A DNA stretch of 22,778 nt from a virus. Location: IMG/VR virus record IMGVR_UViG_3300030090_003797, positions 1,649 to 24,426 of that record; one strand, 5' to 3'. The notes under the pieces are model-generated. The model was given only the letters and a program-made list of their open reading frames with translations, did not search any database and was not told the origin of the DNA. Below, in pieces: positions 134 to 7,959 of the stretch; position 1 is the first letter of the stretch; each line of letters begins with the position of its first letter. The position numbers were made by a program, and so were the translations under genes.

Positions 134-829
134 TTAGACCTCAGTGAATGTTGAATCGTTTTCAAGTGCAATGTAATACACTAAATCAGTTGATTGATGA
201 GAAAATTTACTAACAACAGACTTAGAAACTGATACATCATAATCGCCAGCAAGAAGTCTTATGTTTTCCATCTTGAGATAGAATTCAAAGTTAGCATCAA
301 TTTCATTGTCGCCGACAACTAGAGCGAATTGATTTGATGTCGCACTCTTTTTATCCAGAACAACCAATTCGATTTCATTATTATCATTAGATCGAATGCA
401 AAGATCTGGAAGTTGAAGAACTGAAGCTGCTCTCTGTAAAGACACAAAATTATCCTCTGTTATAGAGAAATCTACAACCGCTTCAGGCATCTTGACATCT
501 TTTGTTAGTGTAGATAGGAGTCTAGGTTCAGAATAATAATAAGCTACTCTTGCACCATCTCCTCCTTCGATATAAACACACTTCTCATCAAAAGTAAATT
601 CAGGATCATTGAAAAGAGAAATGGTTCCTAGAAACTTATTCAAATCCCAGATCCCAAATTCTACAGGGAAATCTTCCTTTACCGTTGCCTTGGCAACTAC
701 ATTCTTTGCAGGTGTGATTGTGTTAATTTCATTTCCGGGCTTAACCAACAAGTTACTGTTGTGTCCAGAAAAGTTTTTAAGAATTGAAAGCGTATCTTTC
801 GATAGTTTCACTTTAGTCGCAGTAATCAT
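134..829 (-). CDS. gp45: DNA polymerase sliding clamp (gp45)
   Basis: This 231-aa protein is the T4-type trimeric sliding clamp that tethers gp43 DNA polymerase to DNA and, in T4, activates late transcription through gp55 and gp33. The N-terminal KLSKDTLSILKNFSGHNSNLL corresponds to T4 gp45 KLSKDTTALLKNFATINSGI. The internal IWDLNKFLGTISLFNDPE matches T4 IYDLNGFLGILSLVNDD, and the C-terminal YYIALENDST matches YVVALEADST. Length is close to T4 gp45 (228 aa). The ATG has a CGGAGA ribosome site 8 nt upstream. It follows a 59-aa basic protein and precedes a GDP-fucose synthase-like gene by 2 nt. Identification is firm from several collinear motifs. Confidence 0.96.
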   Translation of the reverse strand: MITATKVKLSKDTLSILKNFSGHNSNLLVKPGNEINTITPAKNVVAKATVKEDFPVEFGIWDLNKFLGTISLFNDPEFTFDEKCVYIEGGDGARVAYYYSEPRLLSTLTKDVKMPEAVVDFSITEDNFVSLQRAASVLQLPDLCIRSNDNNEIELVVLDKKSATSNQFALVVGDNEIDANFEFYLKMENIRLLAGDYDVSVSKSVVSKFSHQSTDLVYYIALENDSTFTEV

Positions 830-1029: not shown

Positions 1030-1860
1030 CTAAAACTCCTCTATGTTAGACATTAAATTTTTTAACTTATTTGTTATGAAATAATTTAGTATGTTACTTC
1101 TCTTTCCCACAGGTTCTTTTTCATACTCTGTAAGTATAGCAGATTCATATTGTTTAGGTAAACTATTTAGATCAATTAGACTTTGGTTTCTTTTCCATTT
1201 ATCTGTTCCTGTCCATTCGGACAGATTCTCTTTGATGCTCCCTATCTTTTTCTTTCCGCATGGGTTTTGTCTTTTATCTTGTATAAGGAAAACATCATCA
1301 TCTGATAGAATATTTGGAATACCGTCTGATGAATCTCCTTTGATTATGTGATCTGTTAGAAACTCTTCAGGATTTTCACAGGAAAGAAAATCTTTTCTAA
1401 CAGGACTATACTGATCTACATTTTCATATCTCTGTAGTTGTTGGAAATCTTTATCACTGGATATGATTAGTATTTTTTCGTTGCGATTGTGTTTACATAT
1501 GACAGAAATAATATCATCTGCCTCTGTTCTATCCACTGTGATGTTTTTGTATGGAAAAATTTCTTTTACTTCTTCTCGAATCTTTGTCATGCTATTGAAG
1601 ATAGAACTCCAATCTAAATCGGAGTCCTTGATCTTTGCCTTTCTACTATGCTTGTAGTGTGGGAAAATATCCTTCCTCCAATAATTTTTCGAGTCATTGC
1701 ATATAACAAGTTCTCCGTACTTAGAACCGAATTTATTTCTATAGAAACGATATGTATTGAGAGTCATATGTCTTAGATAATCTTCGTCCACTATTGAAGA
1801 TCTTTTGATTGATTGGAAGACATTTGCAAAAAGTATTTGATTGTTATCTAAAAGAATAAT
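1030..1860 (-). CDS. rnh: RNase H, FEN1-family 5'-3' exonuclease (T4 rnh type), probable AUU start
   Basis: This enzyme removes RNA primers and adjacent DNA from lagging-strand fragments. Motifs align with T4 RNase H: NYWRKDIFPHYK matches YWRRDFAYYYK, then TEADDI, LIISSDKDFQQL (T4 LIISSDGDFTQL), and IIKGDSSDGIPN (T4 ILKGDKKDNVAS); both proteins end in IEEF/INEF. The first GTG in frame is at 1791, but starting there would delete ILLDNNQ, the counterpart of T4 CLIDFSQ, which holds the first metal-binding Asp. Upstream of it, back to an in-frame TGA at 1888-1890, there is no ATG, GTG or TTG. An AGGAG site at 1869-1873 lies 8 nt before an ATT codon at 1858-1860, which I take as the start, giving 276 aa. 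The AGGAG overlaps the stop of the preceding gene. The family is certain; the start codon is inferred. Confidence 0.9.
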   Translation of the reverse strand: MILLDNNQILFANVFQSIKRSSIVDEDYLRHMTLNTYRFYRNKFGSKYGELVICNDSKNYWRKDIFPHYKHSRKAKIKDSDLDWSSIFNSMTKIREEVKEIFPYKNITVDRTEADDIISVICKHNRNEKILIISSDKDFQQLQRYENVDQYSPVRKDFLSCENPEEFLTDHIIKGDSSDGIPNILSDDDVFLIQDKRQNPCGKKKIGSIKENLSEWTGTDKWKRNQSLIDLNSLPKQYESAILTEYEKEPVGKRSNILNYFITNKLKNLMSNIEEF

Positions 1861-1873: not shown

Positions 1874-2432
1874 AAAAACCACTTTCTTCATAACCAACTG
1901 TATTATCCGGCAAATCAATAGGGCTCCAAGCACTACAATCTGGATGAGAATAATTAGAAGGAACACACCCCGAAACCGTTTCGGAAGCTATGTATGTTTT
2001 ACCATCATAGTATACCACATCACTTGATTCATAGCGAATCATATTTCCGTTTTCGTCCTTCATTCTAAATTTGCCACGCATGTTTAAATTTTTTTCTTGA
2101 CCGAATTGACTGCCGGTGCTTTGTGTTTCAGTAACTCCTGTTAGAGTATCAAGCTCCTCTCTAACATAAGAGTCTAATAAAAGAAACGCCATTGTCAGAT
2201 TGCTTAATCCAATTTGACTTATTGGGTCAAAAGAAAAACTAGGATTTTCCAAATAAGATAATGTCCGTCGAGACTTAGTTCTAATCGAAAGAACTTTAGC
2301 CACTGTTCCATATGTGTAATATGCATGAACTACCTGTTCTAAAACCGTGTCTGGAACAGATCTTAGTTTACCAGATGCTTGGTTGGTTTTTATGTAGTCC
2401 AACTCTCGTACATATTTTCTTTTATTTGACAC
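1872..2432 (-). CDS. Unknown protein with a possible C-terminal carbohydrate-binding-like module
   Basis: The 186-aa product is not one I can name. It begins at a GTG overlapping the end of the preceding gene by 11 nt; the only ATG near the start is out of frame. The N-terminal two thirds are mixed, with a SYLENPSFSFDPISQIGLSNL stretch and a hydrophobic helix-like NLTMAFLLLDSYV. The last 60 residues (DVVYYDGKTYIASETVSG...CSAWSPIDLP) resemble the short beta modules of the CBM5/12 type, in which a Y-x-G-x-x-Y strand pair precedes a conserved Trp-x-Pro. Such modules occur in virion fibres and hydrolases. It carries two Cys in the C-terminal module and no signal peptide. The module call is inference from pattern only. 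Confidence 0.75.
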   Translation of the reverse strand: MSNKRKYVRELDYIKTNQASGKLRSVPDTVLEQVVHAYYTYGTVAKVLSIRTKSRRTLSYLENPSFSFDPISQIGLSNLTMAFLLLDSYVREELDTLTGVTETQSTGSQFGQEKNLNMRGKFRMKDENGNMIRYESSDVVYYDGKTYIASETVSGCVPSNYSHPDCSAWSPIDLPDNTVGYEESGF

Positions 2433-2772
2433 TAGACTTCTCTTTTTTTATTACTGCATCTTTTACCTTATTTAAATGAATATCGGCGAATGATCTCATC
2501 CATTTCCTGTCTTCTTTATTTCTGTTGCTTTGATAGAAGAATGCTTTATCTACAACGAACTCATATATTCTTTTTTTATCTAGGTAAAATTGAACCCTTA
2601 GATCCAACCCTCTTTGAAAGATACCATATTCTGCTTTCGGGGCTAGTTTGTAAACCCTTAGAGATAATCTATCTGTCAATAAAGAAAAACCAGACTTTAA
2701 ATATTGTTCATACGATAGGTTGGAAGTTTCACTCAAACCACTTTTGTTAATTATTTTTTTTGTTCTTGGCAT
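2422..2772 (-). CDS. Hypothetical protein, 116 aa
   Basis: The ATG is 7 nt downstream of the glutamine synthetase stop, without a strong ribosome site, and the end overlaps the next gene by 11 nt. The product is basic and aromatic-rich (KRIYEFVVDKAFFYQ, RKWMRSFADIHLNKVKDAVIKK). It has no transmembrane segment or recognisable catalytic motif. The predicted character is alternating strands then a C-terminal amphipathic helix. I recognise no family. Tight spacing on both sides supports it as a real gene in the accessory operon. Confidence 0.7.
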   Translation of the reverse strand: MPRTKKIINKSGLSETSNLSYEQYLKSGFSLLTDRLSLRVYKLAPKAEYGIFQRGLDLRVQFYLDKKRIYEFVVDKAFFYQSNRNKEDRKWMRSFADIHLNKVKDAVIKKEKSSVK

Positions 2773-2779
2773 TTTATTT

Positions 2780-4207
2780 CTACGCTTCGGTTAGAATACT
2801 TTCCTCTGCACTTTTAACTACTTCTCTTAAATTAAGCAACGCTTCATATGGATCAATGTTAGCACCAGGCCTTCTATCTTCAAGATAATTTCCTGTTGTT
2901 GGAATTCTTATTGATGCACTCCTATCAGACTTTCCATAAGTAAATTCATCTATATTTGATGTTTCATTTTTGCCGGTTAGTCTTTTATCATTGTCATAAC
3001 CATAAACAGATATTGCCTTTTCGTGATTTAAAGCAAGTGTTTCAATCATAGAATCAATATATTCTGTTTCAAATTCTTCTCTCATCTTTGCAGTTGAAAA
3101 ATTAATATGACAACCTGAACCATTGTGATCTCCTGAAATTGGTTTAGGATCAAATGATACATCTAGTCCTCTTGATTCGCAAATCTTATACAATAGGAAT
3201 CTACTGATCCACAGGTCATCTGCGGCTTTCATTACATTTGTTATTGCTGTTTGATATTCCCACTGTGATTTCAACACTTCTGCATTATACCCAGTCAAAG
3301 CAATACCCAGTTGGTAGCACATCTTCGCATGAGCATCAACAAGATTTCTAAGAGATCCTGCCTGTCCTCCTAACCCGCAATAGTATTCACCTTCTTTTGT
3401 AGGCTCTAAAATATTTGAAGGGGTTTCACTTCCTTCCCATCCAGCAGGAACATTAAACTTTTCATTCCAGAAAACAAATTCCTGTTCAAATGAAACTCTC
3501 ACATCATCCTTTTCGATTGTGTCAACATAAGTCCTTAGCTTATGACGAGAATTTGATTCATGAGGTGTTCCGTCTGTGTTGTAAACTTCACAAAATACAA
3601 ACATAGACATCTGTGAATTTTGCTGTGTCATCTCCATCACATTAGGATAAATCTTGACTGGCTTTAGAATCAGATCACTATCTTCGGTAGTTGCCTGAGA
3701 CGTACTAGAACCATCAAATGACCACTCTGGAGTCTTCTCAAAAATTTGTTGGTTCATGTTTGCACCGGGATTGTCTGCACTAGGCTCCATCAGGTGAAGA
3801 ATTTCATACCTTACCTTTGATCTCAACTTCCTTGATTTGCCTCCATCCAACCAGATGTATTCAAGTTTAACTCTCTTTGGAGCAGGTCTAGATGGGGGAG
3901 CAGTTGGTTTACGCTCAGGTTCAGGCATTTTTTCACCCTTTGCCCAATTCACTAATTGTTCCTTTGGTCTGAAACCACAAACCGAGTTTCCAGATTCAGC
4001 ATCAATAAACAAAGGAGTTCCACATTGTAGATTGTGCTTAGACTTTATTTGAGAAGCCTTTGCCATCTCTTCAGAATTTGTAATATTGAGTGTGGTTATC
4101 TTGTGACCTTCTTTCACAAGTTCCTCAACTACTGGATCGGCTTTCTTGCACCACCCACAATTAGGATTCATAATATAAAGAAGATCAGTCTTTTTCTTTT
4201 TTGCCAT
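2780..4207 (-). CDS. Thioredoxin/glutaredoxin-like domain fused to type II glutamine synthetase
   Basis: The 475-aa product has two parts. Residues 1-93 form a thioredoxin/glutaredoxin-like domain: beta strand LLYIMNPN, active site C17-G-W-C20, and a cis-Pro loop CGTPLF (P65). A Pro-rich linker (about 95-112) leads to a full type II (eukaryote-like) glutamine synthetase, which makes glutamine from glutamate, ammonia and ATP in the cytoplasm. Landmarks are EYIWLDG, PEWSFDGSST (162-169 region, ammonium-site Asp at D165), FEQEF (E241, E243), NAEVLKSQWEYQ (E310, E317), GSGCHINFS (H367), NETSNI (E415), RSASIRIP (R429, R434) and YLEDRRP (E443, R445). These match human E134, E136, E196, E203, H253, E305, R319, R324, E338 and R340. 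An AAAGGA site 8 nt before ATG 4207 favours this start over a TTG two codons upstream. It follows the methyltransferase stop by 2 nt. The activity is inferred from intact residues. Confidence 0.93.
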   Translation of the reverse strand: MAKKKKTDLLYIMNPNCGWCKKADPVVEELVKEGHKITTLNITNSEEMAKASQIKSKHNLQCGTPLFIDAESGNSVCGFRPKEQLVNWAKGEKMPEPERKPTAPPSRPAPKRVKLEYIWLDGGKSRKLRSKVRYEILHLMEPSADNPGANMNQQIFEKTPEWSFDGSSTSQATTEDSDLILKPVKIYPNVMEMTQQNSQMSMFVFCEVYNTDGTPHESNSRHKLRTYVDTIEKDDVRVSFEQEFVFWNEKFNVPAGWEGSETPSNILEPTKEGEYYCGLGGQAGSLRNLVDAHAKMCYQLGIALTGYNAEVLKSQWEYQTAITNVMKAADDLWISRFLLYKICESRGLDVSFDPKPISGDHNGSGCHINFSTAKMREEFETEYIDSMIETLALNHEKAISVYGYDNDKRLTGKNETSNIDEFTYGKSDRSASIRIPTTGNYLEDRRPGANIDPYEALLNLREVVKSAEESILTEA

Positions 4208-4209
4208 TT

Positions 4210-5814
4210 TCAAGTTCCTTTATAAAAAACAAATACTGGTTCGTATTTTAAGTATTTCTCATTCACCTTACAGAAATTTTTACACTTGGGCTTTCCGTCT
4301 TCTCCCACTCTATTTTGTCCCGGCATTCCTTCGAGTCCCATCTTCAAAGTATATTTATACATCATACCTAGAGATTCTAATATGTCAATACTATCCTGTT
4401 CTATCGGTAGATATTTGCCACTCACTAAAACGTCGGCTACATTCCACAATAAATATCTATCATTCTTTAACCACTCCACACAAGTTGTTAATGTTGGTCG
4501 AAGAAAACCTTCTTTCCATGATTCATATGATGATCCATATTTTTTGTACGATTGATTTTCATCTTCTGAGTACGCTTCCCTGTTGAAATAGGGTGGCGAT
4601 GTAAAAATAAGATCTGTTTTCCCTTTATATGGTTGGAAATCAGAGTGCTTGCCAATCTCCTCCGAACCCTCTTTGAAAATATGGTAAGAGTTTGTTTCGG
4701 AAAAGAATGGATTTCCACGATAAGTTTTGGTATTGTAGAAATCAGCAAGAGACTCATACTTACTGTAAGAATCACCATCAATAAAATTATCAGGATTTGG
4801 GTCAGTGCCAACATAATGAATCCGACGATCATCCCGACAGCCCATAGCACCGAGTATGCGGCCGCCCCACCCACTCGACGGGTCATATATGATAATGCGT
4901 TCTTGATCTTTAATGTCTTCTGTGAATCTCTCATACAAATATTTCGCAGTCATTGGCGGAAAGTTTACCGCAGGTTGAATATATCCTATCCTAAAAGACT
5001 TAAAAGCAGCGGGGAATACCTTTCTCCCTTTCTTATATATGCGGATTGCATACAGTTTATCATCAGACATTGAAGAAATATCAAAAGTGGAGTAATGGCG
5101 GTATTCCATTTTATCTTTCCACTTCTCTACCTGATCCTTTGTTAACTGAAGAATATCATCCTGCTCCAACTGAAAATATCCAGTGTTTGCTCCGTCTCGA
5201 ATCTTCACCTGTTCGAGTAGGAAATCATACCCTCGAAATATGTTTGGATTGTTAAAGAATGCTTCCATCCATTCATCTCCACTGCCCACATCCACAACAG
5301 CATATTTCTTATCATGCTTGATCGCGGAAAGTGCATGAGTGTAAAATGAATCACGACGAAGATGACGCATCGCTCCCTTTACAACCTGATCCAATCTCTT
5401 ATCATCGGCTACCAGATCGTAGATAGAATATCCATTATCTTTTTCGGTGTAGTTGATTCTCGTCTTGAACATGTTTGAGAACCATTGATCAACTTCTACT
5501 CCAAGACGAGACTTGTTGATGATTACATCATCGTCCATGTCAGACAGTTCATCGGTGTGTGTGAATTTATGAACTGGATACTCGGCAATCTTATTGAAAG
5601 AATCAATGATGTCTTGTTCATCTTTGCCGGTTCGTGGAGGACAGCCGTAAGTGTCCCATGCTTGTTTCACTGCCTTACGCATTTCGATAACCCATTCACG
5701 AAACTCGTCTGGAGTCATCTCAAGTAAATCTTCAAAGTTACAATTCACATGCGAATCGATCACATGGTTGTTGCGTTCATAGTATGGTTTTATTTGTGAC
5801 ATAACAGAAGACAT
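4210..5814 (-). CDS. Amino-DNA methyltransferase (N4-cytosine or N6-adenine type) with a long unassigned N-terminal region
   Basis: The 534-aa protein has its methyltransferase core in the C-terminal 230 residues. The AdoMet-binding motif I is DPSSGWGGR (311-319), followed by a motif II-like GTDPNP (336-341), and the catalytic motif IV TSPPYFN (405-411). The SPPY form is typical of exocyclic-amine methylation. Motif I precedes IV, and the region after IV (SYESWKEGFLRP...LLWNVADV) fits the rest of the fold. Residues 1-300 have no domain I can name; they include an isolated VVDVGSGDEW that looks superficially like another AdoMet loop. The start overlaps the GNAT gene by 38 nt; ATG at 5802 (M5) is an alternative and neither has a clear ribosome site. 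It may protect phage DNA from restriction or form part of a modification pathway. No cognate nuclease is present. Confidence 0.88.
   Translation of the reverse strand: MSSVMSQIKPYYERNNHVIDSHVNCNFEDLLEMTPDEFREWVIEMRKAVKQAWDTYGCPPRTGKDEQDIIDSFNKIAEYPVHKFTHTDELSDMDDDVIINKSRLGVEVDQWFSNMFKTRINYTEKDNGYSIYDLVADDKRLDQVVKGAMRHLRRDSFYTHALSAIKHDKKYAVVDVGSGDEWMEAFFNNPNIFRGYDFLLEQVKIRDGANTGYFQLEQDDILQLTKDQVEKWKDKMEYRHYSTFDISSMSDDKLYAIRIYKKGRKVFPAAFKSFRIGYIQPAVNFPPMTAKYLYERFTEDIKDQERIIIYDPSSGWGGRILGAMGCRDDRRIHYVGTDPNPDNFIDGDSYSKYESLADFYNTKTYRGNPFFSETNSYHIFKEGSEEIGKHSDFQPYKGKTDLIFTSPPYFNREAYSEDENQSYKKYGSSYESWKEGFLRPTLTTCVEWLKNDRYLLWNVADVLVSGKYLPIEQDSIDILESLGMMYKYTLKMGLEGMPGQNRVGEDGKPKCKNFCKVNEKYLKYEPVFVFYKGT
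4216..4221 (-). promoter_or_regulatory. Ribosome binding site for the redox-glutamine synthetase gene
   Basis: AAAGGA lies inside the last codons of the methyltransferase gene, 8 nt before ATG 4205-4207. That spacing selects ATG over the in-frame TTG at 4211-4213, which would be only 2 nt from the site. Confidence 0.65.
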
Positions 5815-6250
5815 ATCCGGGTAGTTTTCCTTTCATCCAATGCACGGTTCCAACATTTTCGAAATTCATCTTTTCATAAAAGCGTACGGCACGATCATTG
5901 TTTTGACGAACAGTTAACCATACTCTTTTACCATGACAATTCTCTTCGAGAAATCTTTGCACGATCTCCTTGCTCTTGCCGTTACTTGGATTTGCATTTG
6001 CAAGTTGATGTATCATAACATCACCCTTGGAGGCTTTCAACTCTAAATTCTCATAAGACGTTCCTACTTTATTTTTTCTTTGGTAGATTGTGTAGGTGAT
6101 GGCGACATCATCTTCATAGATGCATCTATCTGATTTAACCTTGCGAGTAAGATAATCAAATCGTAGATGTGGAAATATATCTTTATACAACCGAAAGGTA
6201 TCGTATATTTCTTTTATTTGAGATTCAGTGCCATGTTTTACAAGCATCAC
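5777..6250 (-). CDS. GNAT-fold N-acyltransferase
   Basis: The 157-aa protein shows the late GNAT core: a strand HQLANANPSNGKSKEIV whose NGKS replaces the usual R/Q-x-x-G-x-G/A pyrophosphate loop, then VWLTVRQNNDRAVRFYEKMNFENVG, the typical motif B in which an Asn-x-x-Ala-x-x-x-Tyr helix follows the strand. Such enzymes transfer an acyl group from acyl-CoA to an amine. It starts in a 4-nt ATGA overlap with gp46 and its 3' end overlaps the DNA methyltransferase start by 38 nt, an arrangement suggesting coordinated synthesis. The substrate is unknown. The Mom DNA-modifying enzyme of phage Mu has a GNAT-like fold, which makes DNA or a modified base a possible substrate beside proteins or small amines, but nothing in the sequence decides this. 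Confidence 0.82.
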   Translation of the reverse strand: MMLVKHGTESQIKEIYDTFRLYKDIFPHLRFDYLTRKVKSDRCIYEDDVAITYTIYQRKNKVGTSYENLELKASKGDVMIHQLANANPSNGKSKEIVQRFLEENCHGKRVWLTVRQNNDRAVRFYEKMNFENVGTVHWMKGKLPGYVFCYVTNKTIL

Positions 6251-7959
6251 TTTATCCTACTGAAGTTGTTCTTCTTCTCAAACACAATATGATTCTGAAA
6301 CTTGTCTGTCATTGAATCAGACTTGTGACTGATTACAAATATGTTAGCACGGTTGCCGAACGATGTCAATATCTTTAAGAACTCTTCTGTGCCAACTCCG
6401 TCAAGGCTAGAGTCAAACACCTCATCAAGAATCAGAAGATTACAATTCACACTATTCTTTAACCGTGCAATCTCTCGCCATGCAAGAAGCAACGACAAGT
6501 CAATACGCAATCGTTCACCTTCACTGAAACTGTGGTAGGTAAACTCGTCACGATGTCGGCTCTTGATTGTCTCGTTAAAGTTTTCATCAAGGTTGAACTG
6601 ACAGAAGAAGTCCATGTCCGCAAGATACTTGTTAATCAGTTTGTTCATGATTGGCAAGTAGTGCTTGATAATTTTTGATTTGATTCCACTGTCTTTCAAA
6701 AGAGTAGAAGCAATACCATAATAATGTTTATCTTCGACCAACTCTTTTCTTCTTGTGACATGATTTTTTCCTTCACCAATCAGTTGGTTCAATTCATCTT
6801 TGGTTTCTTGAACCTCTTTTCCTTCAGTAAGAACTGACTCAATATTTTTTTGCATCTTGTCAATGTATTGTGAAGAAACTGAAATCTCATTTTGTTTAGT
6901 TGAGATTGCCTTCTCAATTCCCTCTATAGTAGTCAAGACTGCGTTGATGTCATTTAATCTTTTTTGAACCGAATCGATTGTTTCTGACAGTTTCTCTAAT
7001 TCTGAATCAATAGATTCCTTTTCTTTCTTCTTCTCTGCAAACACATTATCACGATGATGCTGTTGTATATCTTGCTTACATGAAGGACAAGTATCATTCT
7101 CTTCATAAAACTTTACGTTCTTCTGAATATTTTTAATCTTGTTCTTTAATTCCTTTTCATCGGACTCCATGTTCAACAGAGACTTAGGAATAATATCTTT
7201 ATCCTTTATCTGACTCATTAGATGTTCAACATTACTTTGATATGATTCAATCACATGATTGTATTCAGAAATCATTTTTCGATTCTCTTTGATTTCCTCT
7301 TCATACTTTTCAACCGAATCACTTGATTTCTTTTCAAGTGTCTTTATGAGTTTTTGTTTATCTTCAGCCTTACTCTTCGTGATCTCGATCTTATAATCAA
7401 CATCCTTAATATATTCTTTCGTTATCTGAAGTCTCATTTTTACAAGAGTATTCATAGCAGAAAATATATCAATGTCTAGAAGGTTCTCGACCACCGCTCG
7501 TCGATCTGCCGCACTAAGCTGCATGAACGGCACATAATTTGATGATCCTAATATCACAACCTGACAAAATGATTTGTAACTCATCTTGAGAATCTGCTCT
7601 TCAAGTATCCTCTGGTAGTCTTTCGATTTTGCATCTTGTGGAAGTAGATCATCGTTCTTGTATATCTCAAACTTTTTTGGCTTAAGGCCACGAACAACGC
7701 GATATTCATCTTTTCCGATTGTGAAAATAATTTCTACCTCACAATCTTTTTCATTAATAGAGTTTGGTATCTGTGGTATATTGATGCCACGAAATGATTT
7801 TCCAAACAACGAAAACGTCAATGCATCTAGCATTGTAGATTTACCTGCACCATTCTCACCAGACACAAGTGTATTGTCGTGACGAGTTAGATCAACAGTT
7901 GTCTTATAGTTTCCTGTTGAGAGAAAGTTTCTCCAACTTAATGATTGGAATATTATCAA
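6247..7959 (-). CDS. gp46: Recombination endonuclease subunit gp46 (Rad50/SbcC-like ATPase)
   Basis: This 570-aa SMC-like ATPase pairs with gp47 to resect double-strand breaks for recombination-dependent replication. The order is as expected: Walker A GENGAGKST (34-42), Q-loop region near FCQVVILGS (131-139), a long coiled coil (about 175-290), zinc hook CPSC (291-294), a returning coiled coil (about 300-400), ABC signature FSEGER (478-483), Walker B LLILDEVFD (508-516) and the H-loop His545 in FVISHKSD. The length is near T4 gp46 (560 aa). It begins in an ATGA overlap with the 184-aa gene and ends in one with the GNAT gene, so the three are translationally coupled. Confidence 0.97.
   Translation of the reverse strand: MIIFQSLSWRNFLSTGNYKTTVDLTRHDNTLVSGENGAGKSTMLDALTFSLFGKSFRGINIPQIPNSINEKDCEVEIIFTIGKDEYRVVRGLKPKKFEIYKNDDLLPQDAKSKDYQRILEEQILKMSYKSFCQVVILGSSNYVPFMQLSAADRRAVVENLLDIDIFSAMNTLVKMRLQITKEYIKDVDYKIEITKSKAEDKQKLIKTLEKKSSDSVEKYEEEIKENRKMISEYNHVIESYQSNVEHLMSQIKDKDIIPKSLLNMESDEKELKNKIKNIQKNVKFYEENDTCPSCKQDIQQHHRDNVFAEKKKEKESIDSELEKLSETIDSVQKRLNDINAVLTTIEGIEKAISTKQNEISVSSQYIDKMQKNIESVLTEGKEVQETKDELNQLIGEGKNHVTRRKELVEDKHYYGIASTLLKDSGIKSKIIKHYLPIMNKLINKYLADMDFFCQFNLDENFNETIKSRHRDEFTYHSFSEGERLRIDLSLLLAWREIARLKNSVNCNLLILDEVFDSSLDGVGTEEFLKILTSFGNRANIFVISHKSDSMTDKFQNHIVFEKKNNFSRIK

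Follow-up and report, generated by a model that had tools for sequence, protein, structure and literature searches.

The fusion gene and its genomic setting

The stretch of DNA analysed here (the window, 22,778 nucleotides) is part of a 24,426-base IMG/VR record. Its minus strand carries a gene that is open for 475 amino acids from an ATG at position 4207 to a stop at 2780, and that encodes a thioredoxin-like domain, a Pro-rich linker and a type II glutamine synthetase (GSII), as judged from the open frame, matches in Pfam, PHROGs and the PDB, and an AlphaFold model. A reading of the sequence alone had placed the gene at 2780-4207, which is correct; the strand is minus, and the plus strand across this interval is packed with stops. 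That reading had also taken the two domains to belong to one gene, and the frame indeed runs without a stop or frameshift between the redox and synthetase parts. The redox domain (residues 1-94; 3926..4207, minus strand) was delimited from secondary structure, invariant columns and thioredoxin-family matches, and includes the C17-G-W-C20 motif at 4148..4159 (minus). It is joined by the Pro-rich linker (residues 95-112; 3872..3925, minus) to the synthetase (residues 113-475; 2780..3871, minus), which was recognised by its catalytic residues and its match to Streptomyces GlnII (4bax). The AlphaFold model, for which the input alignment had 43 rows, has a mean pLDDT of 88.6 and a pTM of 0.76, with high confidence in both domains and a dip in pLDDT to about 70 in the linker, which differs in length and sequence between aligned relatives. 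Both domains are under strong purifying selection, with dN/dS against the nearest relative (L001) of 0.078 for the redox domain and 0.082 for the synthetase part. An assembly chimera or frameshift is ruled out by these ratios together with the same two-domain order in 29 other contigs, which come from many metagenomes.

The source is a T4-like phage, with a gp23 capsid/tail module and a replication module of gp45, gp46/47, gp55 and UvsW. In transcription order the window contains gp17-18-19-20, gp21, gp22, gp23, UvsW, gp55, gp47, a pyrimidine-dimer-glycosylase-like gene, gp46, a GNAT gene, a 534-aa methyltransferase-like gene, the fusion, two small genes, RNase H and gp45. The names of gp17-gp23 and UvsW are taken from sequence and gene order; that of gp23 is backed by a phage match, at best 54% identical among deposited phages (S-SSM7). 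Where a contig extends sufficiently, the fusion is flanked by the RNase H/gp45 end and, on its opposite side, by gp46 or the methyltransferase-like gene. The conserved upstream gene gp46 (6247..7959, minus) encodes a recombination endonuclease, identified from SMC/AAA profiles and synteny and named from gene order. Downstream are a 116-aa open frame that is usually conserved beside the fusion (2422..2772, minus; synteny), the T4 RNase H (rnh) homologue (1030..1791, minus; profile match and synteny) and the gp45 sliding clamp (134..829, minus; Pfam/PHROG-type profile matches and synteny). GNAT was rejected as a conserved partner, since only the two nearest relatives have it.

Immediately upstream, at 4210..5814 (minus), lies a putative DNA methyltransferase of 534 aa with a TSPPY motif, suggested by weak Pfam N6_N4_Mtase and PHROG matches and by synteny. 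In most of the T4-like contigs it adjoins GSII, whether before or after it, and it is not found nearby in the fused contigs L003, L005 and L040. No sequence match to it was found in the PDB, and its AlphaFold model reaches a pLDDT of only 67.6. Copies in 15 other phages are 60-99% identical to that in the window, with a mean column identity of 80%, well above that of the adjoining GSII. A search for the host by means of this gene gave only partial, weak matches in 245 genomes from the phylum to which a Marinimicrobia single-cell genome belongs.

Some further observations concern the surroundings of the gene. Between the window and contig L002, gp46, GNAT and the methyltransferase-like gene are 97-98% identical; identity then drops sharply to 67% in the redox domain, 56% in the synthetase and 63% and 34% in the next two genes, and beyond these returns to 81% and 89%. 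Judged by this break in identity, the fusion gene looks like a cassette exchanged by recombination. A promoter-like match, TTGACA-16-TATGAT (11/12; 4361-4388, minus), is the best of the region; it falls within the methyltransferase-like gene and precedes the start of the fusion by about 155 bases. Overall, matches of this kind exceed the expectation from shuffled sequence only moderately. A search for a glutamine riboswitch near the gene, prompted by PMC9004378, found no Rfam match at gathering scores in the window and seven loci, the exceptions at those scores being manA and tRNAs in L008 only. In the 123-kb fusion phage G001, what looks by eye, and by eye only, like a large sugar-nucleotide cassette lies beyond the clamp-loader gene (L244-L245), and has dehydratase/epimerase-like, cytidylyltransferase-like and aminotransferase-like genes.

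The two halves of the protein

The C-terminal part, residues 113-475, is a glutamine synthetase of type II, nearer to GSII than to GSI or GSIII. Pfam Gln-synt_C matches residues 220-456 of the fusion with an E-value of 3.7e-18, and Gln-synt_N matches at 7e-8, slightly below its cut-off. In phmmer searches of the PDB the yeast GSII was best (E 1e-72), with GSII proteins ranging from 1e-72 to 1e-62 and class I enzymes reaching at best about 1e-11. The synthetase part of the model superimposes on Streptomyces GlnII 4bax with a Z score of 40.8 and 1.8 A over 334 residues; GSII structures gave Z scores of 33-41 and other matches at most 32. The type II class proposed from the sequence is thus upheld by GSII-first PDB matches, by the fold and by the presence of both GS domains. 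The beta-grasp and catalytic domains are shared with the synthetases of Streptomyces (GlnII), yeast, human and plants, with 37-40% identity over the aligned structure and Z scores of 34-41; the phage protein differs from these structures in its added N-terminal redox domain.

It had also been claimed that the human active-site residues E134, E136, E196, E203, H253, E305, R319, R324, E338 and R340 have counterparts here. All ten are present and identical, as are D63, R299, R341, N248 and G249, and in total 16/16 of the active-site positions checked, covering the metal, glutamate, ATP and ammonium sites, are identical to mammalian GS. In a set of 67 phage GSIIs, variation is confined to 2/16 of these positions, in one unfused protein each. 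The synthetase half therefore has the features of a working enzyme, and we infer that it is catalytically active. The domain is 363 aa long, and when it is aligned with Salmonella GSI the match extends no further than residue 387, short of Tyr397, the adenylylation site of that enzyme. The adenylylation region of bacterial GSI has no counterpart in this protein. Because the alignment ends before the GSI adenylylation tyrosine, it is reasonable to suppose that control of the host GSI is bypassed; this phage GSII is probably adenylylation-independent and would thereby escape host control of glutamine synthesis.

Fused GSIIs average 5.3 cysteines, compared with 7.3 in unfused phage proteins and 8.2 in cellular GSIIs. 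Three cysteines are invariant (C206, C277 and C297); every phage class and almost every cellular row has them, as does mammalian GS. Comparison of fused, unfused phage and cellular proteins revealed no conserved, potentially regulatory cysteine specific to the fused GSIIs.

Residues 1-94 are predicted to form a thioredoxin-fold domain. In the AlphaFold model the order of elements is strand-helix-strand-helix-strand-strand-helix, with CGWC preceding helix 1 and T64-P65 preceding strand 3. The C17-G-W-C20 motif and Pro65 are found where the sequence-only reading had put them; T64-P65, a putative cis-Pro, is invariant across members, and alignments of relatives show that C62 and C77 are invariant too. 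Part of the conservation of the domain is biased by the CGWC pattern used in the search; the motif is, in addition, kept in all 28 fused loci (28/28) that a search by GS patterns alone brought up. The domain matches profiles of thioredoxin and glutaredoxin-like families weakly but consistently; Pfam Thioredoxin covers residues 3-89 with an E-value of 1.1e-4 and 22.6 bits, against a cut-off of 23.5. Foldseek matches include thioredoxin/glutaredoxin models of about 85-100 aa. Since fold searches of the PDB with the full model are dominated by GS, the redox fold rests on element order, profiles and Foldseek/BFVD.

Membership of established families was considered. TrxA proper was rejected, as the motif is CGWC instead of WCGPC and the NCBIfam equivalog scores 25.5 bits against a cut-off of 96.8. 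Glutaredoxin 3 and NrdH were also rejected, CGWC not being of the CPYC/CVQC type and GRX_bact matching (E 0.048) in only 1/8 members. The stand-alone phage thioredoxin/glutaredoxin of PHROG 22 shares the thioredoxin fold, the CXXC motif and the cis-Pro, with a weak match (E 1.5e-4). The module here is unlike PHROG 22 in its CGWC and its two extra invariant cysteines, and in that the relatives seen always carry a C-terminal extension attached via a Pro-rich linker. Among deposited phages, no match to the redox domain was better than E 1e-2. It should be mentioned that six of the loci (L014, L024, L026, L029, L030 and L036) have a Cys-rich N-terminal head, e.g. MACKCGKNKDCKC, before the redox domain; this head (CxC) is possibly metal-binding.

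Distribution of the fusion and of the module

Protein and alignment scans of viral contigs recovered the same two-domain order from no fewer than 29 further IMG/VR contigs, all of them from uncultured ocean phages of the T4-like type, with synthetase parts about 43-95% identical. The architecture is thus recurrent and not a one-off; the scans were built on short peptide patterns and most records are fragments, so that the counts are lower bounds. The fusion was also looked for in cellular genomes and not found: a scan of 84,980 species genomes, which covered relatives of this redox domain, gave none (0/15 pattern matches proved to be a relative). The 80 cellular GSIIs compared are unfused to this redox domain and at best 44% identical. 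Among deposited phages GSII was found only as genes of uncultured jumbo phages; those of LR756501, LR756502 and LR745206 are 39-43% identical to the fusion GS and are without the redox domain. A partial literature search found no published description of a thioredoxin-domain/GS fusion in a phage. Viral GS itself has been described: it is listed as an auxiliary metabolic gene of marine viruses in the ETSP viromes reviewed in PMC9083009, is encoded by Ross Ice Shelf viruses (PMC10721903) and has been proposed to affect ammonia assimilation (PMC9083009, PMC10721903). The sections of these two papers that concern viral GS mention neither a redox-domain fusion nor the GS class or the gene order. 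A further paper on nitrogen genes of marine viruses refers to GS only in passing.

The best 80 viral GSII loci comprise 28 that are fused, 50 that are unfused and two that are cut off. A quick tree of GSII sets almost all phage sequences apart from the cellular rows sampled, as a clade with a support of 83. The fusion label changes 6 times on this tree, at least 4 of these changes being forced by well-supported branches, and all 6 are confined to a single supported group of 43 phage rows. Two proteins without the redox domain, L171 and L172, are nested among fused forms; both keep a Cys-containing head and L172 also keeps a Pro-rich linker, an apparent case of domain loss.

The redox domain also occurs, about 40-70% identical, with two other C-terminal parts in related phages, and the linkers of these carriers are Pro/Gln-rich. 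In one group the domain is followed by a short helical 'WQEAKQ' tail, at a locus with an IMPDH/GMP-reductase gene and a DUF4406 gene; in the other it is followed by a long Pro-rich tail and adjoins gp32. The former arrangement, module and short helical tail beside an IMPDH/GMP-reductase homologue and a DUF4406 gene, is seen in L008, L015, L041 and similar loci; this neighbourhood is another nucleotide-metabolism setting. In L008 a manA RNA motif (5864-6071, 73 bits) lies just 3' of the gene for module and tail, and several tRNAs surround it. The helical tail is itself a stand-alone 80-aa gene beside DUF4406 in the fusion phage G001 (L251, G001:C1 107010-107240); G005 and G007, phages with an unfused GS, likewise encode it separately. 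The survey shows that two carriers exist without the module and that the module is found on several carriers. None of 15 module-holding records has a second copy of the module, GSII is present in 0/19 records with the module on other carriers, and no redox domain was found in the unfused-GS records searched. No record has both domains as separate genes, their co-occurrence always being as a fusion, a pattern equally compatible with a functional link and with simple fusion. A tree of the redox domain agrees with movement of the module; with 85 columns it is unresolved and too short to give the direction or to establish repeated exchange.

Possible roles of the fused protein

A link of the synthetase to nucleotide synthesis had been proposed from the sequence, and it is plausible, since in other phages GSII directly adjoins a class II ribonucleotide reductase (RNR) or ThyX. 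The class II RNR ends 10-12 bp before GSII in the relatives L229 and L233, and elsewhere GSII lies among ThyX, RNR and primase/helicase-like genes, neighbours that support a role in supplying phage DNA precursors. The link comes from relatives only, because G001 is without a recognisable RNR large subunit (none by PF02867).

As for the redox domain, PMC10371808 cites a thioredoxin-activated GS in Chlorella and Anabaena and gives GS as a captured target of TrxC in M. tuberculosis. By analogy, the domain could be a built-in activator that reduces a disulfide in the synthetase, so that glutamine synthesis tracks the redox state of the infected cell, and the fact that the two domains, where they share a record, are always fused is in keeping with this. 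However, the fused GSIIs are the cysteine-poorer ones, their invariant three cysteines are not fusion-specific, and GSII and the domain each occur without the other in many phages. We regard such an activator as unlikely. The suggestion, made from the sequence, that the domain regulates the synthase is weakened by the 50 of the best 80 viral GSII loci that are without it and further by its absence from L171 and L172, by its presence on two other C-terminal parts and by the lack of an extra conserved cysteine. A targeting function, likewise suggested from the sequence, is conceivable. That a phage-specific module exchanged among unrelated metabolic and structural carriers of ocean T4-like phages should, when joined to GSII, make a covalently built-in thioredoxin-activated synthetase, redox-coupled, seems to us rather unlikely.

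Alternatively, the synthetase homologue might be a DNA-modification amidoligase partnered with the adjacent putative DNA methyltransferase. The frequent adjacency of the two genes and the presence of several phage amidoligases among the weak fold matches are compatible with this idea, but all checked glutamate, ammonium and ATP-site residues of true GSII are retained, some fused contigs are without a nearby methyltransferase and GSII elsewhere adjoins RNR/ThyX; we consider it improbable. About equally improbable, in our opinion, is that the N-terminal domain serves as a tag for targeting or assembly, through which its carrier docks to a complex of the phage or the host, with the redox motif of minor importance for the carrier. 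One module on three unrelated carriers with Pro/Gln-rich linkers, and the Cys-rich CxC head added in some members, could be understood in this way; yet CGWC, the cis-Pro and two further cysteines are retained, as expected under selection for thiol chemistry.

The explanation that we favour, and think probable, is an active GSII feeding phage synthesis and carrying an autonomous thiol-disulfide module that is shuffled between carriers. An autonomous module is preferred over built-in regulation because fused GSIIs have fewer cysteines, none of them fusion-specific. The synthetase, made alongside phage replication genes, would convert glutamate, NH4+ and ATP to glutamine and, free of host control, would provide the amide nitrogen of phage nucleotides and of further products, to the presumed benefit of the phage. 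The N-terminal CGWC domain would be a thioredoxin/glutaredoxin-like module acting on a redox partner, not a dedicated GS regulator, and would ride on GSII via the flexible Pro-rich linker here and on other proteins in related phages.

GSII as a class and viral GS were already known; the fusion of a redox domain to GSII is an architecture that recurs among phages. Across much of the ocean, phage production is believed to be limited by the supply of nitrogen, and a phage GSII that probably escapes the control of host GSI would be a direct lever on that supply. The natural set of fused, unfused and domain-lost synthetases, with the module also found elsewhere, would make the effect of a thioredoxin on GS testable with matched proteins.
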